IMG/VR virus record: IMGVR_UViG_3300010885_047207
Location: 1-22,978 of that record
DNA: 22,978 bases
Reading direction: 5' to 3' (one strand)
Source of the DNA: a virus
Part shown: positions 50-22,554 of the stretch, in pieces
Layout of the letters: every line of letters starts with the position of its first letter
How positions within the stretch are numbered: position 1 is the first letter of the stretch
Translations under genes and position numbers: made by a program
Notes under the pieces: model-generated
Told to the model about the DNA's origin: nothing
The model's database searches: none
Seen by the model: the letters and a program-made list of their open reading frames with translations, nothing else

Positions 50-57
50 CATAAATA
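50..57 (+). promoter_or_regulatory. Late-type promoter octamer CATAAATA for the 64-1065 gene trio
   Basis: CATAAATA is followed by the 6-nt spacer TTTATA and then the ATG at 64. It is the only promoter-like element before the three overlapping plus-strand genes, which probably form one transcript. Confidence 0.65.
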
Positions 58-63
58 TTTATA

Positions 64-411
64 ATGCCAATCGCAACTAATCCTTACAGTGTAGGTATAG
101 CTTCTAATCCAATTAATGACCTAGACACACAAAGTCAGGTACAAAAATATAAGGATGAAGAAAAGACACATATTGCGCCTCAGGTACTACCTTTTGATTT
201 AAACGGTTCGCAGGAGTTAATTAGTGCATTGTATAAGGATCTTCTAGCTATAAGAAATATGATTCTTGCGGCAGAAAAGAATCCGCAGGTTAAAACAAAA
301 TACACAAAACCAATCCTAAAAGTCATCGATAATATTGGTAATGAAATTTTACAAGATATTCCAGAATTGCTTGATAAATTGCAATTATCGCATACAATAA
401 GACATGATTAA
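64..411 (+). CDS. Hypothetical 115-aa protein, first gene of the plus-strand trio
   Basis: I do not recognise a family. The first 45 or so residues are polar and probably disordered. Residues of about 48-108 (from SQELISAL to LDKLQLSH) look continuously alpha-helical and amphipathic, and could mediate oligomerisation. There is no signal peptide, membrane segment or Cys cluster. The ATG lies 6 nt after a late-type CATAAATA octamer, which decides the start and suggests late expression. The last 8 nt overlap the next gene, implying translational coupling with the membrane protein encoded there. A role in virion morphogenesis or lysis would be guesswork. Confidence 0.75.
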   Translation: MPIATNPYSVGIASNPINDLDTQSQVQKYKDEEKTHIAPQVLPFDLNGSQELISALYKDLLAIRNMILAAEKNPQVKTKYTKPILKVIDNIGNEILQDIPELLDKLQLSHTIRHD

Positions 412-823
412 AAAGATTGTCTTTTCCCTTGTTTTAACTATCTTAATTAGTACAGGTATAGGATTTGTTCTTCAAAATATTATTGGATTCTGGCAAGGCA
501 CTACAGCAGCAATAATTATTCACTTCCTAATATTTTATTTATTCAACCCCGAAAAAAAGAGTCGGGAATTTATCGATAGTAAAAAATCTGCATTTAATGA
601 ATTACTGCAAACCCAAAATGTAACAGTCGACTGTCCCTGTGGTCAAAATTCAATTACGACGCCTATACTATTAAATACAGAAAATATCTTTACGTGTGAT
701 AAGTGTCTTAGTAAATTTCGCGTGAATGTAGTGTTTGAATCGGTATTGTTGACAGAACCTTTTAATATTGCTAATGCTTTTAATGCTCTTAAGTCAAGGG
801 AACTTCCTTATAATGGTGTATAA
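404..823 (+). CDS. Small membrane protein with C-terminal zinc ribbon (139 aa)
   Basis: Two hydrophobic segments are visible, at residues of about 5-24 and 32-47. They are joined by a short turn and followed by a basic patch (KKSR) and a soluble domain. That domain holds CxC (C77, C79) and CxxC (C98, C101), a zinc-ribbon spacing of the DCPCG...FTCDKC type. The two-helix hairpin should place the ribbon on the cytoplasmic side if the positive-inside rule holds (K3, K4 and K51/K52 are both inside). The gene overlaps its upstream neighbour by 8 nt and its stop overlaps the next start (TAATG), so the trio is coupled. I know no named family. It could be an inner-membrane factor in takeover, assembly or lysis, but nothing here decides this. 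Confidence 0.8.
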   Translation: MIKKIVFSLVLTILISTGIGFVLQNIIGFWQGTTAAIIIHFLIFYLFNPEKKSREFIDSKKSAFNELLQTQNVTVDCPCGQNSITTPILLNTENIFTCDKCLSKFRVNVVFESVLLTEPFNIANAFNALKSRELPYNGV

Positions 824-1065
824 TGAGAACGTTTAACTTTAAACTTAAAACTGGTAAAGAAATTAAAATGGATATTGATGAGCTAACGCGTTGGGCGTGT
901 TTGCTTGAAGGTATTGAGCAAGTCTCAAATAAGTGTGATGAGCTTGGATATGGTAAAGATAACGAAGAGTGGATTAAGCCATTAGCCTTTCAAAAGTATA
1001 TTGACGAGCGCTTTCACTCTATGAAGCACGATCTTACTGTAGAAGCAATGATGGGCAGAATTTAA
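823..1065 (+). CDS. Hypothetical 80-aa protein, third gene of the plus-strand trio
   Basis: The ATG overlaps the previous stop in TAATG, so it is probably translated by re-initiation. The N-terminus (FNFKLKTGKEIKMDIDEL) reads as a beta hairpin followed by a helix. The rest (ELTRWACLLEGIEQVSNKC) is helical and mixed in charge. No motif or family is recognised. The stop at 1065 is 6 nt from the stop of the convergent structural gene, which leaves no room for a classical terminator between them. Confidence 0.7.
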   Translation: MRTFNFKLKTGKEIKMDIDELTRWACLLEGIEQVSNKCDELGYGKDNEEWIKPLAFQKYIDERFHSMKHDLTVEAMMGRI

Positions 1066-1071
1066 CATATA

Positions 1072-2967
1072 TTACGTAGCACTTAAAAGTCCAAATATAT
1101 TATAAGTATAAGATGGGTTGATCGTGTAGCCATACCTGGACCAGGTATGGTTATAGCTGATGAGAGTTCGGAGAGCTAGTACGTTATCTGTATAAGGTGT
1201 AAACACTATACGACCATTCTTAATAGCATTATTAGATAATCCAACAACAGTTAACGTATTCGGTATTGGTACTCCTCCAACAAGCGTATAATTACTTATT
1301 GTAAGTTCTTCTGTACCTGTAATATCAAAGTAATATGTAGTACCTGAACGTAGTGGTATTGTCATTAAATTACTAGAGTTAAATCCACTAATAGTAGCAT
1401 TTACTGAAGAATACCCCGCATTCGTCGTACTTAGACTTATATAATTCATAAGCACAAAGCCGTTTTGATTTGAGCTTAAGTTATATGTTACACCGTTTAC
1501 TGTATCAACAGTTACATTTGATGTTCCGGTAATACTACCAAGAGTGTTAGTTGCAACAACTTTGTATACACCCGCTTCATGTGGTAGAATATTATTATCA
1601 GTATATGTACCTGATAATACATTTGTAATAAGTATATTATCTTTATACCACCTATAACTTATAGGTGCAAGACCACTAACGCTAACAGTAAGATTCATTA
1701 TACTATTAGCTTTAAAGTTACTATTTGCGTTTAGCGGTATTGTGAATAAAGGCGGACCTACAGCGCTTGTTAGCCCTAATACTTGATTAGTAGTATTAAC
1801 TAACACAGGAGATTGTATAGAAGCGGAGAGCGTAGGGTTACTAGGTGGTGTAGCTACTGATAACGCAGATAGAGCAGGTCTAAATGCATTATAACGGTCT
1901 TGAAGTCCCTGTACTGTAAAGAGTGAATCAGGAACACCTTCAAGCTGAATAATACTGCATTCACCCCACGTATAATTATAACCTATCGTTACTACATTAA
2001 ATACATTACTACTTGCTACAGATGAAAGACATGTTGTATTATTATTGAAGAAAATAAGCGGATAAGCAAACTTAGTAATATTAAATTTATTTGTAGGTTG
2101 TGTTATATCACCATCTTTTACTAGAAGGGCGTAGTTAGCGTAATACAAATTAGTTTGATCAAAATCTACTTGTATATCTTTATACAGCGTTGTCACGGTA
2201 AACAACCTATTAACATTATCGATAGCTGTTAAGGTTTCCTTAGGCGTGTAAACAGATCGATCTGCATTTCCTAGCCCCCACTCAAAAACAGCTGGGTAAT
2301 TATCTCCGGGTGAAGGTATATTACTATTAATAGTAGTACCATCACTATTATAGATCTTATTAATTAAAATAAGATAATTATTCTTATAATATACATTCTC
2401 GTACGGTATGTTATAGGTAGTAGATGTGATGGGTATACTATATGTATAAGTCTTAGTATTACCTTCAACTTGCATATTACCTGTATGTGTTGCGCTCCAT
2501 ACTACAGCTAACCTATATTCAAAATTTATGTACTGACCAGTTGTTATGCTATACGGTAAAGTAAACACATTACGTGCAAAAGCAATACCCGTATCACGCT
2601 TAATAGCAAATTCATTTATATCAAAAGAAGTGAGGGCTTTCTTTGTTGTAAAGGAAGCAATATATAACCTACTTGATATAGAATCATTATATGACTCTAC
2701 TATATCGCGTTTTATATTACTAAACTCCGAACTAGCAATAACACCAGATAATTTATAACCTAAAGATCCAGATAAACTACGACTTGTTCCTATATCTAAG
2801 TAATTTAAAATAGTAGGTATGTCATAACTATATAAATCGATAAGCCCGCTCGATAATATCGTATTATTACACCACGGTGTTGAATATACAATATTATTAT
2901 CTTCCAAAACAGAAAATCTATACTGACCTCTAAGTTTCCGATCTATATTTATATTTTCGTGTATCAT
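1072..2967 (-). CDS. Tail/fibre protein with Ig-like domain (631 aa)
   Basis: Residues of about 12-155 follow a layout common in phage tail proteins: GQYRFSV, an early GLIDLY, a LDIGT strand, a FTTKKALTSFDINEFAI strand and an Arg-rich FARNVF motif before YxLAV. Residues of about 405-488 look like an Ig/I-set domain, with the strand LTVSVSG, the core SYRWYKDN, and AGVYKVVATNTLGS before a final TSNVTV strand. Ig-like domains on phage virions are known to bind carbohydrate or cell surfaces weakly; that role is inferred here. Its ATG overlaps the TGA of the upstream gene (ATGA at 2964-2967), so it is coupled to the lectin-like protein. It is the last gene of the minus-strand block. Confidence 0.8.
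   Translation of the reverse strand: MIHENINIDRKLRGQYRFSVLEDNNIVYSTPWCNNTILSSGLIDLYSYDIPTILNYLDIGTSRSLSGSLGYKLSGVIASSEFSNIKRDIVESYNDSISSRLYIASFTTKKALTSFDINEFAIKRDTGIAFARNVFTLPYSITTGQYINFEYRLAVVWSATHTGNMQVEGNTKTYTYSIPITSTTYNIPYENVYYKNNYLILINKIYNSDGTTINSNIPSPGDNYPAVFEWGLGNADRSVYTPKETLTAIDNVNRLFTVTTLYKDIQVDFDQTNLYYANYALLVKDGDITQPTNKFNITKFAYPLIFFNNNTTCLSSVASSNVFNVVTIGYNYTWGECSIIQLEGVPDSLFTVQGLQDRYNAFRPALSALSVATPPSNPTLSASIQSPVLVNTTNQVLGLTSAVGPPLFTIPLNANSNFKANSIMNLTVSVSGLAPISYRWYKDNILITNVLSGTYTDNNILPHEAGVYKVVATNTLGSITGTSNVTVDTVNGVTYNLSSNQNGFVLMNYISLSTTNAGYSSVNATISGFNSSNLMTIPLRSGTTYYFDITGTEELTISNYTLVGGVPIPNTLTVVGLSNNAIKNGRIVFTPYTDNVLALRTLISYNHTWSRYGYTINPSYTYNIFGLLSAT
1130..1150. repeat. Strong inverted repeat near the 3' end of the Ig-domain gene
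   Basis: CCATACCTGG (1130-1139) and CCAGGTATGG (1141-1150) are perfect inverted repeats around a single A. With wobble and A-T pairs the stem extends a few bases outward (G1129-T1151, A1128-T1152, T1127-A1153). It lies inside the coding region, 65-85 nt past the stop of the plus-strand trio. It could act as a 3' hairpin for that transcript, but no strong T-tract follows. Confidence 0.5.
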
Positions 2968-4139
2968 AGATAAATTGCAGTAATATAAGGTGCGTAAAAT
3001 CCAATCGGATTTACACTCGAGTTAGTTAAAAATAATGAATTAGAGGATAGATACCAGTTACTACACAAATTATTTTTATATACAATAAATGCACTATCTG
3101 TCGACACATATTTAAACATCTCGGTACGATTTAAGTTTATATCAACTGTTCCTGTTAGACTCCAAAACACAACGTTAAGTGTATAGCCAAAATTATACCT
3201 ATCTTGATCAAAAATAGGCACATCTACATTATTAATGTTAGAGACTATTTTACCATAAGACGCATATGGCGTCGGGCATATTGTAGCTCTATCATCGGAT
3301 ATGGGGTTAGAAATATCCGCTAAAGCTTCAATAGGCTTAATTGAAGGCGCCGTTGCAAGTGGAATATTGCTATCTAAACTCACACTTGATGCAGTACTTA
3401 TAAATGAAGAAGAACTACCCGAGACAGCGCTACCCTCTGTATGAAAGTTTTTAAAATAAATATTACCCACTTTATTAATATTATTACTACTAATAGGTGT
3501 AGCAAACGATGCGCCGGCTTTATACAGTGTATTGCTTGTTATATTTAAATTTATATCTTGCTGTAATAGAGGCTTAAAATCATCATCAGGGTTATATCTA
3601 TAGTCAACAAATAAAGTTCTACCTACATTACCAAGTCTTGCTCGTATTGTTTTATATCTCACCTCAGATTCAACAATTTTAAAATCACTATCAATACTAG
3701 AAAGAGCAATGTTAATCTTATAGGCGTTATAGCTATAGGTAGGCCAGTTACTACGAACACTAATACTATTAGCTATTCTATTATTATCTGATATTCCATC
3801 TCTTACAGTGACTGATCCTGATGTCGCTGATACAGGAAAACATCCTGTAGTATCAAATCCAACTGCAATAATAGCTCCTGATACACCAGGACTAATAGCA
3901 CTTAAATTAACTGTATTACTAAAAGCAGATAGCCCTGAATAACCAAGATCTATATTGTAATTACCACCAGAGAGAGCATAATTACTATCCATTAAGAATA
4001 TAGTGAAACCTGCTTCGGTATTACTATTACCGCTTATAGCGTATTCAAAAGACCATACAATATCATAATACGGAGAATAACTATAGCTAGAAGCTATATT
4101 AAACGCTTTTGTATTAATCGTGAACTTAGGATACACCAT
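2964..4139 (-). CDS. Lectin-like (L-type/ConA-fold) virion protein (391 aa)
   Basis: Residues of about 25-235 carry the pattern of L-type lectins. They show EAGFTIFLMDS (42-52), a glycine pair leading to LGYSG (65-69), and AVGFDTTG (92-99), which matches the conserved A-V-x-F-D-T strand of legume-type lectins. A RARLGN...LFVDYRY strand pair (about 166-182) and GNIYFKNFHTEG (225-236) follow. The C-terminal 150 residues are unassigned and contain a Ser-rich linker near 238-255. The inferred role is glycan binding on the host surface. The ATG lies 6 nt after a perfect TATAAATA. The stop overlaps the next start as ATGA. The lectin call rests on motif pattern only. Confidence 0.65.
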   Translation of the reverse strand: MVYPKFTINTKAFNIASSYSYSPYYDIVWSFEYAISGNSNTEAGFTIFLMDSNYALSGGNYNIDLGYSGLSAFSNTVNLSAISPGVSGAIIAVGFDTTGCFPVSATSGSVTVRDGISDNNRIANSISVRSNWPTYSYNAYKINIALSSIDSDFKIVESEVRYKTIRARLGNVGRTLFVDYRYNPDDDFKPLLQQDINLNITSNTLYKAGASFATPISSNNINKVGNIYFKNFHTEGSAVSGSSSSFISTASSVSLDSNIPLATAPSIKPIEALADISNPISDDRATICPTPYASYGKIVSNINNVDVPIFDQDRYNFGYTLNVVFWSLTGTVDINLNRTEMFKYVSTDSAFIVYKNNLCSNWYLSSNSLFLTNSSVNPIGFYAPYITAIYL

Positions 4140-4145
4140 ATAGTA

Positions 4146-4153
4146 TATTTATA
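4146..4153 (-). promoter_or_regulatory. Late promoter TATAAATA for the lectin-like gene
   Basis: A perfect TATAAATA occupies 4153-4146 on the minus strand. The 6-nt spacer TACTAT and the ATG at 4139 follow. The TGA stop of the upstream small gene (4156-4154) abuts the octamer directly, so the 14-bp gap is wholly promoter plus spacer. Confidence 0.75.
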
Positions 4154-4366
4154 TCAAGAGTCTTTTGCAAAGACACAAGTCATCGAATTTTTAGATTTAA
4201 ACCGTGTCACATGTTTAACTGAAAAGCCCATACGCTTATATTCGCGATAGAGTATATCAAAATACTCCATATCTATATTAATAATGATGCTATTTCTCGA
4301 CTCATCGATTATTAGATATTCAGAGAATTCTTCACCAAGTGCTAGTGCTCGTTCGGAAACAGCCAC
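4154..4366 (-). CDS. Hypothetical 70-aa protein between fibre genes
   Basis: The start is GTG at 4366-4364, 5 nt after an AATAAATA octamer. An ATG at 4368-4366 is out of frame. The protein begins MAVSERAL and has an alpha/beta look: a helix (SERALALGEEFSEY), the strand NSIIINIDM, the helix EYFDILYREYKRM and two more strands (FSVKHVTRF, TCVFAKD). No family is recognised. Its place between tail-fibre genes would suit a small assembly factor or chaperone, as some phages encode beside their fibres, but the sequence does not show this. Confidence 0.7.
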   Translation of the reverse strand: MAVSERALALGEEFSEYLIIDESRNSIIINIDMEYFDILYREYKRMGFSVKHVTRFKSKNSMTCVFAKDS

Positions 4367-4371
4367 ATATA

Positions 4372-4379
4372 TATTTATT
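4372..4379 (-). promoter_or_regulatory. Late-type promoter octamer AATAAATA for the 70-aa gene
   Basis: AATAAATA at 4379-4372 is followed by the 5-nt spacer TATAT and GTG at 4366. The TAA stop of the preceding small gene (4377-4375) lies inside the octamer, so stop codon and promoter share bases. Confidence 0.6.
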
Positions 4380-4536: not shown

Positions 4537-4539
4537 AAT

Positions 4540-6258
4540 TTATACTGTATAACCAACAATTCGAATTAACAAATCATCATTATTCGATGGTGATATTCTA
4601 AACGCGCATGTTAGGTCGCCTGTAGCTGTTGCAGAAAGAGGTATCATGACCTGACTATTATTTCTAATACTATCCCCACTACCTGAAGCTCTACAGGCAC
4701 CAACAACATATTCTGTATTTCCAATATTACCACTATTAGGAGTTGTAAGTTTAGATGTATTTATAGCAGCTAAGACAAATCTATCAGTATTATCACTATC
4801 AGGCCCAGCTTTTAATATATTACAATCAAGAATTAAGTTTTTTGCGTATGAAGGTACCCCAGTTGTAGGTGACGAGAGTGGAGGGATAGTAATACCATTG
4901 GGTAGTATTGTTGCAAGTGGGTATGCAGAAATGGTCGCTGCGGTTACCTGCATCGTTGTACCTGAATACGAATGCTTAAAGATTGTTATAGGTGTTTGTA
5001 AAAACGATATAGGTGAAAGCCCGTTATAAGTGAGTGAAGAATTAATAGTCTGTGCTGTACCAGCTGATTCTGTTGCTATACCTGTAGTACGACCATACCG
5101 ATCAATCGTTAAAGCTTTACCCCCTACAACCGTTTGTAATGTACCTAACACTGAAAGACCTATTTCGAGATTACCTGAAAGAGGATTAAAAGGAGTGCCA
5201 GTTGTGAGAGCACCGTTTACTGTAGAAGATAATCCATTGGTGACCGTAAATGAAGAACTAACAACAAAATCTGGTTTAGCTTTTATTATATAAAGCATAC
5301 CGGTAGCACTTAACGGTGAATTAATACCAGAAGATATTTTAAAAAGTGTGGATGTTGCAGGATTATTAACACCACCAGAACCAATCCCGCTTACACCGTA
5401 GATTGATTTATTAATTAAATTAGGAACATTAAAAGAACCTGTAGGCGTACCGATAATATTAAATGATGTTCCGATAACACTAAACAGTTCTGTATAGGCA
5501 GAACTTAATACCTGTTGCCCATTACATAACAACCAGCCTTGAGGTGATCCATTTGTTGAGACGTATGGCATTATTGAGCCAACAGGTATTTGATTTGCAG
5601 ACCCCGCGACAAAAACAGTATTTGTAACTGTAGACGGAGCCCATGATAAGTTGCCAGCAATATCTGTTGTGAGAGCATAATTAGCAGCAGTTCCGCCCGC
5701 AGGCCATTGATATGAAACATTATTAATAGTTAAAGCTTGTGGTAATTTAAGATATGTGCTACTATACGGTACTATACTGTTAGTGGTTATAGTACTACTA
5801 AGAGCTATTTTATTGTTTGTATCAAGCGTTAAAGAATTACCTAATAAATTAGAAGAAACATTCCCTGCGGATAGCTTACCAACACTAATATTATTAGCAC
5901 TTGTAAATGTAATAGTTGCATCATTAGGAGAATAAACTCCACCTACAGCTTTCCAATTATTGATATCCGCTGCATTACCACCTTGAAAGATATATAGAAC
6001 ATTATTATCTGCATCATATGCATAATCACCAGCTGCAGCAGTTAAAAGAGTTGTTACATCGTTAGAGTTTCCTAAGAATGTAGTACCTATAACAATGCCA
6101 CCCGTTGTCTGACCATCTCCAACAAAAAGACGTTTTGTATCAGTTGTATAACCTATTTCACCTTCAGTCAATACTACATTTTGTCTATCGGTATTAGTTC
6201 CACGTCGAACAAGCAGTTTGAGTAGAGTATTTTCGTAAATTTCAATTTTTGCTGGCAT
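4540..6258 (-). CDS. Tail fibre with Mtd-type N-terminal module and phage collar domain (572 aa)
   Basis: Residues of about 12-58 form the module RRGT...EGEIGYTTDTKRLFVGDG...GG, which matches the N-terminal domain of Major-tropism-determinant-type fibres. A second module (GDYAYDADNNVLYIFQ...NW, about 77-106) follows. Residues of about 224-290 match the phage tail collar domain, with VGSIMPYVS...PQGWLLCNGQ, an AYTELFSVIG helix and FNVPNLINKS. The remaining C-terminus is beta-rich and ends in a strand of hydrophobics (DDLLIRIVGYTV). The likely role is a distal fibre contacting the host. It starts 13 nt after the related fibre gene and has no promoter octamer of its own, so it is probably co-transcribed with it. 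Confidence 0.8.
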   Translation of the reverse strand: MPAKIEIYENTLLKLLVRRGTNTDRQNVVLTEGEIGYTTDTKRLFVGDGQTTGGIVIGTTFLGNSNDVTTLLTAAAGDYAYDADNNVLYIFQGGNAADINNWKAVGGVYSPNDATITFTSANNISVGKLSAGNVSSNLLGNSLTLDTNNKIALSSTITTNSIVPYSSTYLKLPQALTINNVSYQWPAGGTAANYALTTDIAGNLSWAPSTVTNTVFVAGSANQIPVGSIMPYVSTNGSPQGWLLCNGQQVLSSAYTELFSVIGTSFNIIGTPTGSFNVPNLINKSIYGVSGIGSGGVNNPATSTLFKISSGINSPLSATGMLYIIKAKPDFVVSSSFTVTNGLSSTVNGALTTGTPFNPLSGNLEIGLSVLGTLQTVVGGKALTIDRYGRTTGIATESAGTAQTINSSLTYNGLSPISFLQTPITIFKHSYSGTTMQVTAATISAYPLATILPNGITIPPLSSPTTGVPSYAKNLILDCNILKAGPDSDNTDRFVLAAINTSKLTTPNSGNIGNTEYVVGACRASGSGDSIRNNSQVMIPLSATATGDLTCAFRISPSNNDDLLIRIVGYTV

Positions 6259-6271
6259 TGTTTAAAGTAAG

Positions 6272-7384: not shown

Positions 7385-7387
7385 ATA

Positions 7388-7395: not shown

Positions 7396-7403
7396 GTTAA
7401 TTA

Positions 7404-8075: not shown

Positions 8076-8082
8076 TTTATTA

Positions 8083-8090
8083 TATTTATA
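8083..8090 (-). promoter_or_regulatory. Late promoter TATAAATA for the short-fibre gene
   Basis: A perfect TATAAATA occupies 8090-8083. The 7-nt spacer TAATAAA and the ATG at 8075 follow. The upstream gene stops at 8095, so the whole 19-bp gap is GGGG, octamer and spacer. Confidence 0.75.
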
Positions 8091-8094
8091 CCCC

Positions 8095-13367: not shown

Positions 13368-13375
13368 TATTTAAT
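13368..13375 (-). promoter_or_regulatory. Late-type promoter octamer ATTAAATA for the 1101-aa gene
   Basis: ATTAAATA at 13375-13368 is followed by the 6-nt spacer TTGTAT and the ATG at 13361. The spacing decides between the ATG and the TTG two codons upstream. Confidence 0.6.
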
Positions 13376-13412
13376 TATAATAATCGAGTTAGAAAGCTTT
13401 TACAGAGAAAGA

Positions 13413-13721: not shown

Positions 13722-13988
13722 TAAAGAACCGCCTATCTTACCATATAATATTTCGTTAAATATAGTCTGCTCACGATAATTATAAAAAATATCCTTCTTA
13801 TAAGTTATAATATTACTATTACTATCTCCCCAGTTTATATCAAGGAACAGAATGGTATTATAAGATTCATTAATACCTGTTAGAATAAAATTAACAGTAC
13901 TAAAACCTTTAAGCGTAATAGGGAGATTATATATCGTAGTGCTAGTTACATTTGATAAATTTAAAAAAATAGTAGTATCTTTATTCAT
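13719..13988 (-). CDS. N-terminal part of a split PKD-like structural protein (89 aa)
   Basis: The ATG overlaps the TGA of the 1017-aa gene (ATGA at 13985-13988), so it should be translated by coupling. The product is beta-rich (TIFLNLSNVTS, TVNFILTGI, TILFLDINWGDSNS). WGDS at about 53-56 resembles the W-x-FGDG core of PKD domains. It ends GKIGGSL at the TGA, part-way through the presumed domain. With the downstream frame the full protein would be about 190 residues. The position among baseplate genes suggests a small baseplate or tail component; the function is not known. Confidence 0.6.
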   Translation of the reverse strand: MNKDTTIFLNLSNVTSTTIYNLPITLKGFSTVNFILTGINESYNTILFLDINWGDSNSNIITYKKDIFYNYREQTIFNEILYGKIGGSL

Positions 13989-16900
13989 ATTATAAACGCT
14001 CCGTTTTGAGTTGTTGGAGTTCCTTGAATTTGACCTGTAACAGCGTATTGCATAGATGAGTTATAAAAACCTGTTGTGTTTACAGTCTTATCTGTTTTAT
14101 ATAGTTTCGCATCATAAAATGATACAGTGTTATCCTTAATTTCAAAACTATAGTCAAATACATAAACCATATTATTACTATCTGTACATGTATACGTTAA
14201 TTTATATAAATCATTAAATGAATTATGGGTAATAATAGGTTTATCTATTTTAACTATATTAATATTAAATTGAGGAGTTATATAATCTCTTAAACTAAAC
14301 AATGCTGTAGCAGTATTTTGCAAATCACTCAATAAAGGGAAGACTTGTAATACTGAATTATCAATTATATCATACTTATAGATTGTCGGTAGTATAATTT
14401 TAGAGTTAGACCCAGACAAGCTATCAAACTCTGATTGTAAAGTTTGAGGATTCAGAAGTTTCTCCTCTGTTAAAAGCACACTGTATTCTGTTGTAATAAG
14501 ATCACCTCCGTTATTTACTATTTGATCAACAACACAAAAAGTAATCGTTCTATCCTTCTCGTTAAAAAACCTATTTGAGAATTTATTAAACGCTACGGAT
14601 GATATCCTCGTAAAATAAGTATTTTTAGTCATTGGTGTAACAAAATTGTCATCTTGATAATTAATTTTATCAAAAACTAGATAACTATCTGTTTCGCATA
14701 TAATAGTATCGTATATAATATCAAAATCTTTAACTTTATTATAGATTTCTACTTTAACAGCGCTTGTATATTTACTAAACGTTGAGCTTAAAGCAGAAGA
14801 AAGAGGTATAGATTGCGAGTAGCGTTGATTCTTAACGTATAGCTTACCATTTAATTTTCGTTTAAGTGCTTGTGTTTTAAGCTTGTTATCGCCTGTTAGA
14901 GAGCTTATAACTGTTAAACTATTATCTGATACAGTATCATAGTAAAGATAACTATCACCATAGTAATTATCATTTACAATTTCACCCTGTACATCAGTAA
15001 AGTATCCGCAATCGTAATCTTTAAAACTATATTGAGGGTAAGGAGTAGTTTGCGAAGCACTTAAAATATATTTTACATCTAAAGTAAAAACAGACTGATC
15101 AATATTACCTGCAATATAGCCTCTCAGTATATAAGATTGAAATTGCCTAACACCACCTTCAATTAACGTTTCATAATAATACGGTTGAGCAGAAGGGTAA
15201 TCTGCTATATTATCTGCATGTATGGGATCAGGTAGTAAGGAGTTATTTTGAAAGGTAAATCCCGCAGCATCTTTAAAGGTGTATGTTATATTACGTGCTG
15301 GTGCTGCAATTTCTTGATATGGTGTAAACTCTCTAAAGTATAGTGTGTATGGATTACCTGATAAAGAGAATCTAGAAGCAGTAAAGGGAGGTGTTATCGT
15401 ATTAACTGTAAGAGCTGTTAGCCCAGATCGTATAGCACCATCACCTTGTACACCAATTGTAGAGTAGTTAAAATTATAACCTTCATACGCATCGAAAAAG
15501 GAATGACCGTTAAGTGTAAGGTCTAATACTGTTGTTATACCACTATTATCTTCTACTGATTTAAATGTGTGTCCTAACTCATCTTTAAAAAGCGCGTACT
15601 CGTTACCATAAACATCGTATTGAACTTTAGTTATATATCCTTTATTATATAAGTCGCTAAAGTTTAAATTTAGACTATCTTCATTTACTGTTTTCTTATC
15701 AACAGTTTGTTGCTTTGTAAAGTATGGGGTAAATGTCTGTTCGTAATTACTAATCTTGGGATCACCACTAGCAAAGCCAGATGTATTATTCTTTATGTCT
15801 TTTGAATAATCATGAATAAACACAAGAGGGTAATCAGGCTGTTTATTAATCGATACATTACCGTACACGTTAGGATCGGGGAATATATAAACTTTATTAG
15901 CTTCAAGTTTTGTTTTGTCAATAGTGTAGGTATAGTTACTAGTATTAAGTTTAAATATACCTTGCGTATCTGGCTTGAAAAATAACCCTAAATTCCGTAA
16001 CAATTTTAACTCTAACGATGCTTCAACAGTAGCTGTATCCGCGGCTTGTAAATTTAATATATTGGAAGTTGGATTTTGTGCAACAATAAATCTATCATAT
16101 ACGTTATTACCGTTGATAGTTGAAAAGTAGTAAAAATCAACGCCGATATACTTACTAATTAATTGCTTTCTTAAAAACTCTATATCACTATTAGCCAACC
16201 CACATACAGTATTTGCATTTATAAGGGCTAGAGGGTCTGAAGGATTACAAATAGGGTCAGTTGTAACAGCAAAATTAACAGCAAACGGTAGTTCAACTAA
16301 AAATGTCTTTGACTTAAAGACTTGCTGTGGTAATACTTCTTTAAAGAATAGGTTAACATCTATATCATTAATATTTGCTGTATATTCTTCCCTTCTAAGC
16401 GGTGAAGACTCACTATTTGTTCTTGGTAAATCAAAATAATTACCATAAACATCGACAAATTCTTCTAAGTCAATTTTCATCTCTTTGACTACTGTCGAGA
16501 GAGATAAATTTAAAGTGCTAAACTGTGGTTGCTGCTCTGAAGAAAAAATATAGTTATAAATTTTTTCGAAAATAGCTTTCTCTATAGAAAGTGCACTACC
16601 CTTAATCTTAGTTTTATCTACAATATACTTTGTTTCTTCTCTTTTTTCTTTGTAGAATATAATAATCTGCCTTATTTTTTCAACATATATAGGTATAGCA
16701 ATATCCAAATCAACAGGATCTGCCAGATCGAGTGTTGACATGAATCTTAATTCCTGCTGGGTGGAGTAATTTAAAATTAATGTCTTAAGAAACTCTACAT
16801 AAAGATCAACAAAATTTACCTGTATATCAGATGTGTTATTGGTGTTTTTTATATCAGCCCATTGTTTCAAATAAAATAAGTAGAAGTTGTTATATTCCTC

Positions 16901-17038
16901 AGGTGAATAATCAACATTAGTATTTTTTATGAAGTCTAGAAATGAAAGAGGCTGAGTGTTATCAATTGTTATAGTAGAATTACTATTTGTAATAGAATTC
17001 GATACTATACTAACACTAAACGAATTTTGACTGATCAT
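13985..17038 (-). CDS. Large baseplate-region structural protein in the T4 gp7 position (1017 aa)
   Basis: This is a very large protein placed two genes after gp6; T4 gp7 is of similar size and also follows gp6. Homology to gp7 is not visible to me by eye. The N-terminal 190 residues are helical (PLSFLDFIKN, EEYNNFYLFYLKQWADI, YVEKIRQIIIFYKEKREETKY, KGSALSIEKAIFEKIYNYI). The rest is rich in Tyr, Asn, Thr and short beta strands. No enzymatic motif or signal peptide is seen. The ATG lies 7 nt after an AATAAATA octamer, so it starts a new transcription block. Its stop overlaps the split PKD gene by ATGA. A baseplate wedge component is the best inference. Confidence 0.65.
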   Translation of the reverse strand: MISQNSFSVSIVSNSITNSNSTITIDNTQPLSFLDFIKNTNVDYSPEEYNNFYLFYLKQWADIKNTNNTSDIQVNFVDLYVEFLKTLILNYSTQQELRFMSTLDLADPVDLDIAIPIYVEKIRQIIIFYKEKREETKYIVDKTKIKGSALSIEKAIFEKIYNYIFSSEQQPQFSTLNLSLSTVVKEMKIDLEEFVDVYGNYFDLPRTNSESSPLRREEYTANINDIDVNLFFKEVLPQQVFKSKTFLVELPFAVNFAVTTDPICNPSDPLALINANTVCGLANSDIEFLRKQLISKYIGVDFYYFSTINGNNVYDRFIVAQNPTSNILNLQAADTATVEASLELKLLRNLGLFFKPDTQGIFKLNTSNYTYTIDKTKLEANKVYIFPDPNVYGNVSINKQPDYPLVFIHDYSKDIKNNTSGFASGDPKISNYEQTFTPYFTKQQTVDKKTVNEDSLNLNFSDLYNKGYITKVQYDVYGNEYALFKDELGHTFKSVEDNSGITTVLDLTLNGHSFFDAYEGYNFNYSTIGVQGDGAIRSGLTALTVNTITPPFTASRFSLSGNPYTLYFREFTPYQEIAAPARNITYTFKDAAGFTFQNNSLLPDPIHADNIADYPSAQPYYYETLIEGGVRQFQSYILRGYIAGNIDQSVFTLDVKYILSASQTTPYPQYSFKDYDCGYFTDVQGEIVNDNYYGDSYLYYDTVSDNSLTVISSLTGDNKLKTQALKRKLNGKLYVKNQRYSQSIPLSSALSSTFSKYTSAVKVEIYNKVKDFDIIYDTIICETDSYLVFDKINYQDDNFVTPMTKNTYFTRISSVAFNKFSNRFFNEKDRTITFCVVDQIVNNGGDLITTEYSVLLTEEKLLNPQTLQSEFDSLSGSNSKIILPTIYKYDIIDNSVLQVFPLLSDLQNTATALFSLRDYITPQFNINIVKIDKPIITHNSFNDLYKLTYTCTDSNNMVYVFDYSFEIKDNTVSFYDAKLYKTDKTVNTTGFYNSSMQYAVTGQIQGTPTTQNGAFII

Positions 17039-17045
17039 CCAATTA

Positions 17046-17053
17046 TATTTATT
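17046..17053 (-). promoter_or_regulatory. Late-type promoter octamer AATAAATA for the 1017-aa gene
   Basis: AATAAATA at 17053-17046 is followed by the 7-nt spacer TAATTGG and the ATG at 17038. The last base of the upstream TAA stop (17055-17053) is the first base of the octamer. Confidence 0.6.
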
Positions 17054-19170
17054 TAATTAAATAGATTCAAGCCAGTATATAATTGATTGGAGAGAATATT
17101 AGAGATAATTCCGTCAGGTTGCGACCAATTGGAGTATGAGCTAACATTTGCATTAAGTGTATTAGTTATATCATTATAATTTATAACATTATTAGTTATC
17201 GCTCCGTTAATAGTCGGGTTATGCTCGTAAAATAGATAATACGCTTCAAGGTTTGCTTTGGTTGTGCTATCAGGTAATACTAATCCCCAGCCCCATGTAC
17301 TATTATAGCTGCTTAATGTATATGTACCTATAGAACTATTAATAAGAGACGCGCTCAATGATGCAACAATAGGTAAATATGTATTTAACCGTGTAAATGT
17401 ACCACTATACTTTTCAAACGCTACTAAATCAATACCTGCTGTTATTATATAGTTAAGTGTTGATATTTCTTTACCTAGATTGGAGCCGTATATTTCTCTA
17501 TCTTGGTACCCATACGTTTTAAAATCATAATTATAGGAATCAGCAAATCCTTTTAGTCTATTAAAGTTAATAGAAAGCAAGTCGATAAGTCTCCCTATAT
17601 CAGCAGGGTATAAATAATTAGAATTATCAAATTGAACACCATTACTGCCAACCATTTTAATTAGAGACACAAGACTCTGTATACCAGCATAATCTAGTGT
17701 AGAGTTGTTATCAACAAAATTCTGTATTTTCTCGTACGTTCTCTTTCCCAATGTAGCTCCTATAGGAGATGAAAGATTACCTACAATACTACTCATAAAT
17801 ACATCAAATAAAACAGGATTATCTAAAAACAAAGGCTGCATAGCAATATCTTTAAATTGCTGAGTCATATCAATATCTTCACCTTTTTTTGCTACATTAT
17901 AGTAATCTCTTGAGTATAAGTTGAATAGGTTAGATGTTTTCTTTGTTGCGCTAAGTGCTGCCCCACCATTAATATTTAAATCAACAGATATAGCAACATT
18001 TTTAAACGCGTACGGTGCATAATACACATTGCTCTGATCTGTTGTTATACTTTTAGCACTAAGATTTACAACAACATACCCTCTATAGTATGAACCTGCC
18101 GTGGGTGTATCTGTACCGTAAGTTAAATAACTAGGATTACTAATAGAATCCCCCCCACTTAATAGTATATAAGGTTTAAAATATGTTATAGTTCCCTGCT
18201 TATTGGTGTAATTGCTTGTATCCTTTACTTTGGCTACAAATCCTATCTTTGTGTTACCGAATTTATTAGTACCTATAGGAAAAAGATCGGAAGTCATCCC
18301 CTCACTAGTTATACCGTTTGAGTTTATTGAAACAGTTTTAAAGTCGGTGTTCTCAATCACAGCAGCACTTATACCAACAGTAGAAGTATTAGTAAACTCT
18401 AACAACTGACCTGGCTGATACCCAAAAAATAAATTAACCTGCGGTTTTGGTGTATCACTCTTAAAATATACGTTTTGATAACCTGTTATACCACAAAAAA
18501 ATGCATTTGTATCGGTTATATCCGTATACACTATTGTATTACCTGATAATTTACAATAAATAGGTGTAGTTATAGTCTGAAAATCAGATATTTCAAAATA
18601 ATCTGTTAAACCATTCAATCCAACCTCATATTGATAAAAGGAAGAATATAGCTGCAAATGACCGTATGGTTGCTTATCTAAACCTAGAGTAAAATAATTA
18701 TCATCACTACCTGAACAAAAAGCTGTTATCGTCTTTTTATCATTAGCACCTGTTAGCTGCTGGTATGATACAGAATTGGTAACATATATGGGTTGACTTA
18801 TTTGACTTGATATTAAATTAAAGTTTAAAGGGTTATTAATACTAATATTAATACTATTAGGAATAAAATCATACACATCTACAATCTGGTGATAGGTGTT
18901 GATATAACACTGACCATCACCCGTGTAAAGAGAGCATGTAACCTTATAGTTACCAGCAGTTGTGTAAGCGTGCTTTGCGGTAACTGTTTCCATTATAGTA
19001 CCATCACCAAAATCCCAAACAACCCGCTGTGTAGAGAATATATGATCAGTTGTTTCTAATCTAGGTATAAAGGTAAAGGTAGCAAATGGTAGCGAATAAC
19101 CTGTAGTCTTTAATAGATTTTCATAATTATACGTGTCGAAATAGGCATAAACTGTATTAATATTACTCAT
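17053..19170 (-). CDS. Baseplate-region structural protein with PKD domain (705 aa)
   Basis: Residues of about 28-100 are a clear PKD domain: the core VVWDFGDGT at 50-58, then KHAYTTAGNYKVTCSLYTGDG, which is the H-x-Y-x-x-x-G-x-Y signature. PKD domains are Ig-like and usually mediate protein or surface contacts. The C-terminal third is more helical (DYAGIQSLVSLIKMV, YPADIGRLIDLLSINFNRLKG) and may pack in the wedge. The ATG overlaps the end of the gp6-type gene by 8 nt, so production is coupled to the wedge protein. The likely role is a wedge or peripheral baseplate component. I cannot assign a T4 gene number. Confidence 0.75.
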   Translation of the reverse strand: MSNINTVYAYFDTYNYENLLKTTGYSLPFATFTFIPRLETTDHIFSTQRVVWDFGDGTIMETVTAKHAYTTAGNYKVTCSLYTGDGQCYINTYHQIVDVYDFIPNSINISINNPLNFNLISSQISQPIYVTNSVSYQQLTGANDKKTITAFCSGSDDNYFTLGLDKQPYGHLQLYSSFYQYEVGLNGLTDYFEISDFQTITTPIYCKLSGNTIVYTDITDTNAFFCGITGYQNVYFKSDTPKPQVNLFFGYQPGQLLEFTNTSTVGISAAVIENTDFKTVSINSNGITSEGMTSDLFPIGTNKFGNTKIGFVAKVKDTSNYTNKQGTITYFKPYILLSGGDSISNPSYLTYGTDTPTAGSYYRGYVVVNLSAKSITTDQSNVYYAPYAFKNVAISVDLNINGGAALSATKKTSNLFNLYSRDYYNVAKKGEDIDMTQQFKDIAMQPLFLDNPVLFDVFMSSIVGNLSSPIGATLGKRTYEKIQNFVDNNSTLDYAGIQSLVSLIKMVGSNGVQFDNSNYLYPADIGRLIDLLSINFNRLKGFADSYNYDFKTYGYQDREIYGSNLGKEISTLNYIITAGIDLVAFEKYSGTFTRLNTYLPIVASLSASLINSSIGTYTLSSYNSTWGWGLVLPDSTTKANLEAYYLFYEHNPTINGAITNNVINYNDITNTLNANVSSYSNWSQPDGIISNILSNQLYTGLNLFN

Positions 19171-20968
19171 CTTCTATAATTATTTTATTAGTTAGGTTAG
19201 ATATTTCATAGAAATACGCATACATAAAGCTATCTAATGTGTAATTTTGTGTTATAAAGGTTACATCATCTTGTTCATATAATGGGTTCCATACAACATA
19301 GTTAATCTGTGGTGATTCGTAGCCCGTATCTGAACGTCTTGTAGTAACACGCTTAACCCCTACAATATTAAGTATATCGTTAGTAATTTCATTGAGATTG
19401 ACAGTATCACCAAGCTGTATATTGGAAAAATATGTTTTAAATATGTTTAAAATTTGTCCCTTTAGTGAGGCGCTATTGATACGTGTATTAATATCACGCT
19501 TTATAACCAAATAAGTATTATCCTTGAGAGATACAGACTCTACTTCACCGATAATCTGTAATCCAAAGCTAAAAGCTTTATATATTGGATCCATACATAC
19601 TATCGATTGTGTAATATCTTTCTTTAAATTACACTCATTAATCAATAATTGCTTTTGCGATGCATTTAAGTAGTTAGGTGTGCGTTCGTTTAAGATAGTA
19701 GATATTTTCGGTACAGTAAACACATAAACGCTATTAAAGTTTGTTGAAGGAGCAAAAAATACCTGATTAAATAATACCCTACAGTCTTCATTTGGTCTAT
19801 TAAGACCTATTTTATAAAAATAAGCAAGATACTTTGATGTAAATTCTTCATTAGACAGAATATTAACTGACTTTATAATATTATTATAATTTTTAGTAAT
19901 AAACGATTTATAGTCACTCTGCGTCACAAGCCTATCCTGAGTAGTAAACATTTTAGGCGCGTTTTGTTTTATCTGTTCTGCAGTTTCAGCATCAGTAATA
20001 GGCGATGACTTGCTATTATTATTAGGAAATAGATGTACAAGATCAGTTCCTGTAATAAGTCTGGTTTGATTATCGTATATATACTGTGTTATATCAATAA
20101 ATGATGCAGAACTATATAGGTTTATTTTTTGTGTTTTAAGAACGCCTGCTCCTATCTCACCTGTAGCTCCATCTGAAAGTATGTAAAACACTTTTACTTG
20201 CTCACCTACTTTAAGTGATTTTCCTGTAACATCATTACCGAATTTAAACTCGTAGTTACCATTTTCGTTAAGTCTCTTTTCATATTTTCTAGCATTTGCT
20301 GTTTCAAGATAAAGAGAAGAGGTTTCCTGCCACTCATACCACTTATTATCAGCATTACTAAGTACAAATACTGTAAAGCTGTTATCTGCGATAAAGTTTG
20401 CGTTATTTACACCAATAGTATTAACAAGTATATACGTTTCAAAATTCTCACCCACTCCTGCATACGTAGGAGCCTCTATAATATTGCCCTGCATTAGTGT
20501 ATTATTGTTAATGTAGAGAGTTTCTGTACCTGTTGTTGTTTTTTCAAACGAAATATCTTTTATAGTTGTATACGGAATGCCGTTTGCATTAATAAATGAA
20601 AATCGTGGTAAGAGGTAGGTATTTTGTGCGAGTCCTGAGTCTGCTGATAGGCTTAGAGCGACTAAAGATGTTTGTTTACCTAATGGCTTATACCCAAGTA
20701 ATGAAACGAGCCTGTTTATATTTTCATATAAAGATGCTGTAGTAAAATTACTCTCTGTTGATGTGCTGTTTAGATAAAAAATTAATACATGATACATGTA
20801 TGCTACAATATCAATAAAAGCGTTAATATTAGATCCTTCAAAGTTTTGATCTCTAAAGACCTGATTTTCATTTAATCTAGCTATGATTAAATTCTTAAGG
20901 GTTTCAGCCTCAAACGCGGTATAAGCGTCTTTAGGTAGGTTAAATTCGGTAAAGTTATTAATATTCAT
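19163..20968 (-). CDS. 6: Baseplate wedge protein, gp6/baseplate-J family (601 aa)
   Basis: The N-terminal region (ETLKNLIIARLNEN, SNINAFIDIVAYMYHVLIFYLN) matches the helical start of gp6-type wedge proteins. Residues 242-260 (FKFGNDVTGKSLKVGEQVK) with SDGATGEIGAG form the conserved core. NAPKMFTTQDRLVTQSDYKS (336-355) is the hallmark baseplate-J motif. The length is slightly below T4 gp6 (660 aa). In T4, gp6 dimers form the inner ring that ties the wedges together. The start overlaps the gp25-type stop by ATGA and the end overlaps the PKD gene, so three wedge-region proteins are coupled. Confidence 0.9.
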   Translation of the reverse strand: MNINNFTEFNLPKDAYTAFEAETLKNLIIARLNENQVFRDQNFEGSNINAFIDIVAYMYHVLIFYLNSTSTESNFTTASLYENINRLVSLLGYKPLGKQTSLVALSLSADSGLAQNTYLLPRFSFINANGIPYTTIKDISFEKTTTGTETLYINNNTLMQGNIIEAPTYAGVGENFETYILVNTIGVNNANFIADNSFTVFVLSNADNKWYEWQETSSLYLETANARKYEKRLNENGNYEFKFGNDVTGKSLKVGEQVKVFYILSDGATGEIGAGVLKTQKINLYSSASFIDITQYIYDNQTRLITGTDLVHLFPNNNSKSSPITDAETAEQIKQNAPKMFTTQDRLVTQSDYKSFITKNYNNIIKSVNILSNEEFTSKYLAYFYKIGLNRPNEDCRVLFNQVFFAPSTNFNSVYVFTVPKISTILNERTPNYLNASQKQLLINECNLKKDITQSIVCMDPIYKAFSFGLQIIGEVESVSLKDNTYLVIKRDINTRINSASLKGQILNIFKTYFSNIQLGDTVNLNEITNDILNIVGVKRVTTRRSDTGYESPQINYVVWNPLYEQDDVTFITQNYTLDSFMYAYFYEISNLTNKIIIEDE

Positions 20969-21453
20969 ACAAAAGTATAGCCATCAGTATTTAAGACACC
21001 CTTCAAGCTTAGACCTTGGATATTAAGTGAAGGTATAGATAAGCTTATTGTTATATTATACTGTAGATCATCTATATTAGCGAGAACATCGAGTTGATCT
21101 AATACAATACGTGGCTCAAGACTTGTTAATCCTTCATAAAGATCAGTACCTAAAAAGAAGGCTCTACTCTCTGATATAGTTTCAAATAAATATCCCCTCA
21201 AGTCTAATCCAAACCTCGGATTAAGTAATTTTTCACCAGGTGATGTTGTAAGGATATTTTTTACAGAGTTAATTATAGAACCTGCATCGTAAATAGATTT
21301 TAAATCGTTTTTTTCGCTTTTTTTGTGTAACTGAGGATTATCTGTAAAGTGAGGTATAAGATCAAAACCAATATCTTTATATAGGTAACCATCATTTACA
21401 GTTGTATCCAGTGGTGATACTGGTCTTTTTACGTTTAATTTAATTGCAGCCAT
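20965..21453 (-). CDS. 25: Baseplate wedge protein, GPW/gp25 family (162 aa)
   Basis: The family pattern is plain: YKDIGFDL (25-32), a helix SIINSVKNILTT, then SPGEKLLNPRFGLDLRGYLFE (71-91) and the conserved EPRI tetrad at 113-116 before two beta strands. In T4-like baseplates gp25 sits at the wedge-sheath junction and starts sheath assembly. Adjacency of gp25 and gp6 is common outside T4 itself. The N-terminus overlaps the 62-aa gene by 14 nt, and no promoter octamer precedes it, so it belongs to the block starting at 21628. Confidence 0.9.
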   Translation of the reverse strand: MAAIKLNVKRPVSPLDTTVNDGYLYKDIGFDLIPHFTDNPQLHKKSEKNDLKSIYDAGSIINSVKNILTTSPGEKLLNPRFGLDLRGYLFETISESRAFFLGTDLYEGLTSLEPRIVLDQLDVLANIDDLQYNITISLSIPSLNIQGLSLKGVLNTDGYTFV

Positions 21454-21628
21454 ATTGATATAATAACTTTTCGTATAATCTGTTAAATGTTTTAGCTTCT
21501 TCCTCTTCGGAGGCGTTAATACGAAGTGCGGTTAAATACTTTTTAGCTTTTCCAATAGAATCAGAACACCCTACTTTTTTACCTGTATTTCTTTTATAAA
21601 CACATTTACCTTTTCGTATGTATGGCAT
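21440..21628 (-). CDS. Small basic Cys-containing protein (62 aa)
   Basis: MPYIRKGKCVYKRNTGKKVGC opens the protein with C9 and C21 about a basic turn, followed by a helical region (IGKAKKYLTALRIN, EEEEAKTFNRLYEKLLYQ) and a terminal C61. The C-x11-C loop with flanking Lys/Arg looks like a small metal- or disulphide-stabilised knuckle. I recall similar KGKCVY...GKKVGC openings in small marine-phage proteins but know no function for them. Its ATG lies 5 nt after a CTTAAATA octamer, and it overlaps gp25 by 14 nt, so it leads the gp25-gp6-PKD block. Confidence 0.75.
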   Translation of the reverse strand: MPYIRKGKCVYKRNTGKKVGCSDSIGKAKKYLTALRINASEEEEAKTFNRLYEKLLYQYGCN

Positions 21629-21633
21629 ATTAA

Positions 21634-21641
21634 TATTTAAG
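21634..21641 (-). promoter_or_regulatory. Late-type promoter octamer CTTAAATA leading the gp25-gp6 block
   Basis: CTTAAATA at 21641-21634 is followed by the 5-nt spacer TTAAT and the ATG at 21628. It is the only such element upstream of the four overlapping genes that end at 17053. Confidence 0.55.
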
Positions 21642-21662
21642 GTTATGTATCAGTATCCTTCA

Positions 21663-21938
21663 TTACCAGTTACGACACGACCAGTACCCAGCTGTTGTTT
21701 TATCTTTCTTTTGACTACACTTGTGTCTTGCTCTAAAAGATTTTCTTTTTTTAGGGTTCGACTTTTTAATGCGTAAGTTTGGATCGCCGTAATGTACACG
21801 TTTATAACCGGTTTTTGTTTTTACACATCTCATATATTTTTTATCACTACGTGTAGACGACTGTTGACCTGTTACCTTTGTACATTTACCACCACTTGCC
21901 TCTGTTAGTATTTGTTCAACTAAAATATCAAATTCCAT
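21663..21938 (-). CDS. Small Lys/Arg-rich Cys/His protein (91 aa)
   Basis: The N-terminal helix MEFDILVEQILTEA is followed by a very basic domain. It holds C19, C38, C74 and C88 with H49 and H72, and ends in KSFRARHKCS...YWSCRNW. Four Cys plus two His suggest zinc binding, and the charge suggests contact with nucleic acid or an acidic virion surface. The RARHKC...YWSC ending looks like a domain I recall from large marine phages, without known function. Its ATG lies 5 nt after ATTAAATA, and a divergent gene starts 32 bp away. Confidence 0.75.
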   Translation of the reverse strand: MEFDILVEQILTEASGGKCTKVTGQQSSTRSDKKYMRCVKTKTGYKRVHYGDPNLRIKKSNPKKRKSFRARHKCSQKKDKTTAGYWSCRNW

Positions 21939-21943
21939 GTAAA

Positions 21944-21951
21944 TATTTAAT
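21944..21951 (-). promoter_or_regulatory. Late-type promoter octamer ATTAAATA (minus member of a divergent pair)
   Basis: ATTAAATA at 21951-21944 is followed by the 5-nt spacer TTTAC and the ATG at 21938. It stands 5 bp from the plus-strand octamer at 21957-21964. Confidence 0.65.
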
Positions 21952-21956
21952 CAGAG

Positions 21957-21964
21957 CATAAATA
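21957..21964 (+). promoter_or_regulatory. Late-type promoter octamer CATAAATA (plus member of a divergent pair)
   Basis: CATAAATA is followed by the 5-nt spacer GATAT and the ATG at 21970. The octamer and spacing match those at 50-63, which also face a divergent partner. Confidence 0.65.
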
Positions 21965-21969
21965 GATAT

Positions 21970-22554
21970 ATGGCAAAAAAGTATCTAATGCTCGTCGAAG
22001 ATTATATGAGACGGTTTGAACGTGGTGGATTCCTCGTAGGTGACATCTTTAAGTTTGATGGTAAATTTAAATCTTCCGACGCTTATAAAGCTCTAGGTCA
22101 AAATACAAAAGACTTAATCGACGATATGTTAGAAACAGGGCTTCATGTCCGTGTTGTTGGTATTAATGATACAAACGGTCAAAGATTTCCTGGTAATCCG
22201 CAAACATCAGATGCAAGTAGTGTTCAATTATCACTAGCTCTTGATAACGGTGGTGGTAGATATTCTCATTACGTGACAGTTTCACCTAGCTTAGGTCAAC
22301 CTGAGTCACATTATCCAAACTTACCACCTATTCCTGACGCTGTTATTAGAAAAAATAACGTTAATATTAAGCCAAAAGAGCTTGCCAAGCAAGACCATAT
22401 TTCTAATAAAACGGATAAGGGTGATGCTAAAAACACTGACACGGAAATAGCATTAGCTACAAAAAATACTGTTTTACCACACCAATCAACTTCGCCTTCA
22501 CCAGCAGTAGCTTCATACACCCACCAATACCTAGGTGATCTGGTGAAGGCTTAG
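21970..22554 (+). CDS. Hypothetical 194-aa protein, possibly structural
   Basis: The N-terminus MAKKYLMLVEDYMRRFERGGFL is helical and basic. It is followed by a domain of about 120 residues with beta strands (VGDIFKFDG, LHVRVVGIND, SVQLSLALDNGG, HYVTVSP) and a Pro-rich PNLPPIPDAV turn. The last 50 residues are a Lys/Asp/Thr/Ser-rich linker ending YTHQYLGDLVKA, like the flexible tails of scaffold- or capsid-associated proteins. No family is recognised. It has a late-type octamer 5 nt upstream, which argues for late expression. It converges on the clamp-loader gene, and its TAG stop overlaps that gene's TAA in TTAG. Confidence 0.75.
   Translation: MAKKYLMLVEDYMRRFERGGFLVGDIFKFDGKFKSSDAYKALGQNTKDLIDDMLETGLHVRVVGINDTNGQRFPGNPQTSDASSVQLSLALDNGGGRYSHYVTVSPSLGQPESHYPNLPPIPDAVIRKNNVNIKPKELAKQDHISNKTDKGDAKNTDTEIALATKNTVLPHQSTSPSPAVASYTHQYLGDLVKA

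Follow-up and report, generated by a model that had tools for sequence, protein, structure and literature searches.

Gene starts in the viral DNA examined here raise the question of whether a promoter and a start codon can be fused into one short signal. The DNA is the complete IMG/VR record IMGVR_UViG_3300010885_047207, a genome fragment of 23 kb (22,978 bases; 32% G+C, 68% A+T), which we refer to in its entirety as the window. A preliminary description of its sequence noted ten gene starts that are preceded, at a distance of 5, 6 or 7 nt, by an octamer of the T4 late promoter type with no Shine-Dalgarno motif between octamer and start codon, and proposed that the resulting late mRNAs would be leaderless. 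As an alternative it suggested that the AT-rich element serves as a signal for translation in a host not reliant on Shine-Dalgarno pairing. We examined both proposals in the window and in a set of related contigs.

The window and its relatives

Judged by its sequence, the window comes from a T4-like phage. It encodes homologs of the baseplate wedge proteins gp6 and gp25, a long tail-region protein and part of a gp44-type clamp loader (Table 1), as well as tail-collar and Gp10_C-domain proteins. The clamp-loader frame is on the minus strand at 22551-22976, and a plus-strand open reading frame at 22629-22946 is probably spurious. The identity of the window gp6 to its counterparts in cultured phages is low (24-27%), whereas uncultivated relatives are much closer, comprising G004 (82 kb; gp6 87% identical), G001, G002, G003, G005, and G006. 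A further four contigs, G007 (110 kb), G008 (122 kb), G011, and G012, were added via a terminase that they have in common with G004. Together the window and these ten related viral contigs make up the eleven contigs, with 629 called genes, to which we refer as the clade; genes were called mechanically in all eleven, as the first ATG of long, non-overlapping open reading frames.

The missing Shine-Dalgarno motif is compatible with a host among the Bacteroidota or some cyanobacteria. A tRNA search identified none in the window and eight in G008, which gave no host clue, and a terminase profile found no relative among 84,980 genomes. An RmlA-like gene produced mixed, distant matches only, the best full-length match (46%) being to a Sphingobacterium MAG. 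Genes of the psbA/psbD family were absent from the 13 contigs searched, and the Bacteroidota promoter TAnnTTTG had no placement upstream of genes in the clade contigs.

The relative G004 has several further features. A 595-residue Cys/Asn-rich protein with GGxxN/TASG-type repeats, resembling a repeat-built fibre, is encoded at 67388-69175 (-) (L013 7988-9775), and its gene carries a late octamer 5 nt from the start. Three nucleotide-sugar genes (RmlD-, RmlA-, and RmlB-like) lie in a row at 70417-72977 (+) (L013 11017-13577). The same genome also encodes a clearly similar protein pair, at 56370-57257 (+) (L012 16770-17657) and 60061-60930 (+) (L013 661-1530), the second of which matches the head-closure Hc2 family; each of the two genes is situated ahead of tail-fibre-like genes on the opposite strand.

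Octamers at gene starts in the window

All ten octamers were found at the places and spacings described (Table 1), with no Shine-Dalgarno motif between octamer and start at any of them, and two, those of the starts at 4139- and 8075-, are the perfect TATAAATA, as had been noted. The gene that is cut by the left edge of the window (30-) is real, as its first nine residues agree with an intact reading frame in G004.

Table 1. Coding regions, octamers and other predicted promoter elements in the window.
Feature	Position	Strand	Remarks
Late octamer CATAAATA	36..43	-	5 nt ahead of ATG at 30; gene truncated at edge of window
Late octamer CATAAATA	50..57	+	6 nt ahead of ATG at 64
Sigma70-type promoter TTGATA-N16-TACAAT	371..398	+	5 nt (AAGAC) ahead of ATG at 404; within 3' end of gene 64-411
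GAACT-N4-TATAAT element	800..814	+	8 nt ahead of ATG at 823; conserved
Tail-region protein, long, Hoc-like immunoglobulin domain	1072-2967	-	PHROG 4069, E 4e-15
Late octamer TATAAATA	4146..4153	-	6 nt ahead of ATG at 4139
Late octamer AATAAATA	4372..4379	-	5 nt ahead of GTG at 4366; GTG and octamer kept in G004
Late octamer TATAAATA	8083..8090	-	7 nt ahead of ATG at 8075 (Gp10_C-domain baseplate protein)
Late octamer ATTAAATA	13368..13375	-	6 nt ahead of ATG at 13361
Late octamer AATAAATA	17046..17053	-	7 nt ahead of ATG at 17038
gp6-like baseplate wedge protein	19163..20968	-	PHROG 219, E 1.4e-45; late class; start via 4-nt overlap, without octamer
gp25-like baseplate wedge protein	20965..21453	-	PHROG 261, E 5.4e-20; PF04965; late class; overlaps preceding gene, without octamer
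Late octamer CTTAAATA	21634..21641	-	5 nt ahead of ATG at 21628
Late octamer ATTAAATA	21944..21951	-	5 nt ahead of ATG at 21938; kept in G006, G007, G011
Late octamer CATAAATA	21957..21964	+	5 nt ahead of ATG at 21970
gp44-type clamp loader, C-terminal part	22551-22976	-	right end of window; E 1e-74 to G004

The core TAAATA lies 5-7 nt upstream of 10 of the 22 gene starts in the window and of 2 of its 599 other ATGs (binomial P ~1e-19). The bare octamer is not enriched, with 179 one-mismatch matches against 159.6 expected, and the enrichment is thus one of position relative to starts and not of abundance. As had also been described, overlapping genes lack the octamer: it is missing at the window starts that lie in overlap with the preceding gene or no more than 4 nt beyond it (2967, 4536, 10059, 13988, 19170, 20968, 21453, 404+, and 823+). 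It is also missing at 6258, 7384, and 13670, where the gaps are 13-48 nt. Homologs in the relatives of those window genes that have no octamer mostly have none as well.

Two divergent gene pairs in the window are separated by spacers, at 31-63 (33 nt) and 21939-21969 (31 nt), each made up of two late octamers placed back to back; the spacer at 31-63 is a near-perfect inverted repeat. Divergent octamer pairs of a similar kind are present in G004, G005, G007, and G011.

Spacing of the octamer across the clade

Among the 629 starts of the eleven contigs, TAAATA is spaced 5 nt from the start in 80 cases, 6 nt in 44, 7 nt in 23, 8 nt in six and 4 nt in none, and every other spacing has 0-7 cases (about 1 per position). 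TAAATA is found 5-7 nt upstream of 147 of the 629 called starts and of 62 of the 16,660 other ATGs (23% vs. 0.37%), and the spacing result was unchanged once near-identical contigs were removed. The octamers at these spacings fit the T4-type late promoter consensus TATAAATA with a variable first base. The commonest is TATAAATA itself (41 cases), followed, apart from shifted copies, by AATAAATA (27), ATTAAATA (24), and CATAAATA (22). The perfect TATAAATA considered alone occurs 21, 12, and 5 times at spacings 5, 6, and 7, respectively, and never at 0-4. TAAAT followed by C, G, or T forms no peak at 5-7 nt.

Genome compaction is not the cause of the short spacing, because TAAATA keeps to 5-8 nt from the start (37 of 41 occurrences) even where upstream space of at least 60 nt is free. 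Beyond the 5-8 nt peak the octamer is near background, and there is therefore no second, leadered set of octamers within 60 nt. A -35 element is not conserved, as no column from -30 to -14 of the octamer genes exceeds 0.46 for any base.

Among homologous genes the octamer and its spacing persist while the flanking sequences have diverged. For instance, the spacing of TAAATA is 5 or 6 nt for the gene at 2964-4139 in seven of seven contigs, and 6 or 7 nt for that at 13985-17038 in nine contigs. The 5-nt peak is present in terminase-neighbourhood loci down to 55% terminase identity, and the arrangement is therefore old in the clade.

Restriction of the octamer to late genes and its rarity before overlapping genes

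Genes were assigned to late (virion or packaging) and replication classes by similarity to proteins of T4, HTVC008M, S-CRM01, and Moby. The octamer precedes 15 of 43 late genes vs. none of 40 replication genes. When only non-overlapping genes are considered it is found at 15 of 26 late-class genes (late vs. early, Fisher P = 6e-7, although P values in this work overstate independence because the contigs are related). The preliminary description held that the octamer tracks transcription blocks and not every start, and named an equal frequency before overlapping genes as one outcome that would speak against its proposal. The frequencies are far from equal, at 4 of 214 starts that overlap the previous gene or lie no more than 4 nt from it and 147 of 405 elsewhere (ten contig-edge genes left out).

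Approximately 40% of the non-overlapping late-class genes are without an octamer; these may be leadered, or may be read through from upstream. Overall, an octamer is present at 24% of the called genes and TATAAT at 8%, and 33% overlap their upstream neighbour or nearly adjoin it. Roughly a third belong to none of these groups and may possess leaders. The gp32 gene is preceded by an A-rich gap of 23-67 nt.

Predicted transcription start and late transcription machinery

The T4 late octamer occupies positions -13 to -6 from the transcription start (PMC1524935). On this basis an octamer at a spacing of 5 nt would place +1 on the A of AUG, and one at 4 nt would cut the start codon, so that the T4 position calls for a minimum spacing of exactly 5 nt. 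The limit that we observed is hard and one-sided, as the spacings peak at 5 nt and none of 4 nt occurs. The bases surrounding the predicted RNA 5' ends show an initiator pattern. In 72 of 78 genes with spacing 5, the base immediately preceding the A of AUG (-1) is a pyrimidine. At spacing 6 the pyrimidine-purine (YR) step is at the AUG in 20 of 40 genes and one base earlier in 17 (37 of 40 in total), and 90% of the 20 genes with spacing 7 have a purine as the sixth base downstream of the octamer. Geometry and initiator pattern agree, as predicted, with a T4-type start at the putative +1. Two features used to recognize leaderless genes are also present, namely a -10 box lying about 10-12 nt ahead of the start codon and the lack of a Shine-Dalgarno motif, which occurs in 2% of octamer genes (below the control). 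In every gene class, Shine-Dalgarno cores are no more frequent than background.

The preliminary description had suggested looking for homologs of gp55 and gp33, of which the first was identified and the second was not. A profile made from six public gp55 sequences detected gp55 homologs in G007 (69352-69789, E 8e-22) and G012 (25767-26360, E 5e-26), in both beside gp47, gp46, and uvsW. The G007 homolog retains the segments YKDDMIGD and NPFSYFT...AFVNRIKKEK that are conserved among gp55 proteins. The same search of the window and G004, both of which are fragments, identified none; gp55 is thus known only from relatives whose terminase is about 60-82% identical to that of G004, and we infer its use by the window's own phage. 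A sliding clamp was detected in relatives by profile (E 8.5e-4), and for a model of this protein of moderate confidence (pLDDT 63) the top PDB matches listed were all clamp-family chains (E about 1e-10). Profile searches for gp33 and gp59 found neither. A conserved protein of 93-125 residues is encoded in the gp33 position upstream of gp32 and shows no recognizable similarity.

Predicted promoters of early and middle-type genes

Genes without an octamer show a second peak, of TATAAT 5-8 nt ahead of the start, and this box occurs in two kinds of element. The first has TTGAT 15-19 nt upstream of TATAAT; 12 of the 14 such promoters near a start are 5-9 nt from it, and one precedes uvsX in G005 and G007. 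The second has GAACT 3-5 nt upstream of TATAAT, with 21 of 27 at 5-8 nt from the start. In the window, the promoter ahead of 404+ (Table 1) is kept in variant forms in G004, G005, G007, G011, and G012. AAGGAACTCCGATATAATAAGGT-ATG, exact or nearly so, recurs ahead of a row of small genes in G008, in the interval of about 69.0-73.3 kb (in L114, about 9.6-13.9 kb). The GAACT-box early-type promoter (AAGGAACTCCGATATAATAAGGT) fits no promoter class known to us.

As the TATAAT boxes are 5-8 nt from the start, the early and middle-type messages may be leaderless too. The original promoter account is supported in its late part and is incomplete, in that promoters of early and middle type (404+, 823+) also abut the start codon. 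We consider the odds slightly favorable that most of the lytic programme of the clade is leaderless, with late octamers, TTGAT/TATAAT, and GAACT-TATAAT elements all beginning transcripts at the AUG and operon-internal genes being translated by overlap without Shine-Dalgarno motifs. If so, the phage would supply messages requiring just a 5'-terminal AUG.

Proposed mechanism and alternative explanations

Based on these sequence patterns, we estimate a probability of roughly 0.84 that the octamers are T4-type late promoters placed so that late mRNAs begin at the AUG, or no more than 3 nt before it, and are leaderless or nearly so. This was the principal reading of the preliminary description, and the restriction to late genes, the near absence from operon-internal starts, the hard 5-nt limit, the initiator and the gp55 of the relatives all support it. 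In the proposed mechanism, a phage gp55-like sigma factor on the host RNA polymerase would read the octamers, with the sliding clamp as activator. The first transcribed base would be the A of the start codon at spacing 5, or a base 1-3 nt earlier at spacings 6-8. Because the octamer places the first transcribed base there, late mRNAs would begin with AUG or nearly so, and we infer that they are translated without a leader or a Shine-Dalgarno motif. Operon-internal genes would start by overlap with the preceding gene.

It is feasible, but unlikely, that the octamers are T4-type late promoters and the abundant mRNAs are nevertheless leadered, either because transcription starts off the T4 position or because of read-through from promoters farther upstream. 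For some of the listed T4 octamers activity in vivo is not established, and part of the mapped ends may reflect processing (PMC2988020); in the clade some late genes have no octamer at their start. However, the A of AUG is indicated by the hard lower limit as well as by the YR initiator, a start farther downstream would remove the AUG, and within 60 nt the octamer is near background beyond its peak.

Considerably less probable is the alternative put forward in the preliminary description, a translation-initiation signal of a non-Shine-Dalgarno host that is unrelated to promoters. Bacteroidota mRNAs are of this type, having no Shine-Dalgarno motif and favoring A at -3 and -6 (PMC6847099), and the low level of Shine-Dalgarno cores in all gene classes of the clade is in keeping with such a host. 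A host translation signal should, however, serve early and overlapping genes, which are translated by the same ribosomes, yet the octamer is present at 0/40 and 4/214 of these, respectively, and for this reason we reject it as the main explanation. Nor does a translation signal explain the YR initiator at the predicted start. Also against it are the specificity for TAAATA over TAAAT followed by another base, the step from 0 genes at 4 nt to 80 at 5 nt, and the loose TAAAAA-type run in phage immuto, which equally has no Shine-Dalgarno motif.

RegA of T4 targets AU-rich sites at start codons, and sites of this kind could bind an RNA-level regulator, such as a RegA-like repressor of AU-rich initiation regions. 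This we regard as barely plausible for the octamers, since the RegA target is early genes (PMC2988020) vs. the late-confined signal here, and since the motif is that of the gp55 target with promoter geometry kept. A chance or compositional artefact, from an AT-rich genome and starts picked by eye, has the high A+T content of the window and the lack of enrichment of the bare octamer in its favor, but is of negligible probability and is refuted by the mechanical start calls in the ten other contigs, where 23% of starts vs. 0.37% of other ATGs have the signal.

If the octamers are leaderless late promoters, a single 8-bp signal appears to fix both the RNA start and the protein start of many virion genes, and a phage is able to shift its late programme to leaderless mRNA, which would be informative on the ribosomes of its host. 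The octamers would then permit base-exact prediction of transcription starts and of true gene starts in an uncultivated clade, and the octamer-to-AUG distance would be a direct genomic marker of phage adaptation to translation initiation in uncultivated bacteria.

Comparison with known systems

Late transcription in T4 is the textbook system with a separate promoter and ribosome site. The clade has in common with the gp55/gp33/gp45-dependent T4 late promoters the octamer consensus TATAAATA, the restriction to late genes, the lack of a -35 element and genes for gp55 and the clamp. It differs in that T4 normally leaves room for a ribosome site, as the preliminary description had remarked: in T4 late genes the octamer is mostly 21-28 nt from the start, with a Shine-Dalgarno motif between in about half of the genes, whereas in the clade the distance is 5-7 nt and there is none. 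Other T4-like phages were scanned with the same gene caller. The cyanophages S-CRM01 and AG-345-F15 (the latter from a marine single cell) have the same octamer core, but with spacings of mostly 14-28 and 12-35 nt, respectively. TAAATA is mainly 23-24 nt from the start in Moby, which has a Shine-Dalgarno motif in about half of its genes, mainly 18-27 nt in XG4 and 25-27 nt in C48C1. A spacing of 5 nt is found at two genes of HTVC008M, in which the positions are otherwise scattered, and one of 6 nt at a single gene of V45v66. As the octamer is usually about 15-35 nt upstream in the T4-like phages sampled, its position abutting the start is, among these phages, probably a derived state of the clade.

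In the portion of the open-licence literature accessible to our searches, we found neither an earlier report of T4-like leaderless late promoters nor any match that combined leaderless messages, a late promoter and TATAAATA. What is new, on the genomic evidence presented here, is a set of predicted promoters of the T4 late type at which transcription would begin on the start codon. We considered phage AR9 as a precedent, since its authors call phage transcripts often leaderless, but rejected it because its own leaders are 26-491 nt (PMC5312081). Flavobacterium phage immuto (Immutovirus), a myovirus with a related terminase (33% identity), is also without Shine-Dalgarno motifs, but has no TAAATA peak at 5-7 nt and instead has its loose A-rich run near starts. 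The leaderless TA-led genes of Actinobacteria and Deinococcus likewise have a -10-like TA box about 10-12 nt from the start and no Shine-Dalgarno motif (PMC3160421). In those genes, however, the box is the -10 element of the host sigma70 (TANNNT), whereas in the clade it would be the target of a phage sigma factor, is confined to late genes, and is found in genomes whose other genes are also without Shine-Dalgarno motifs.
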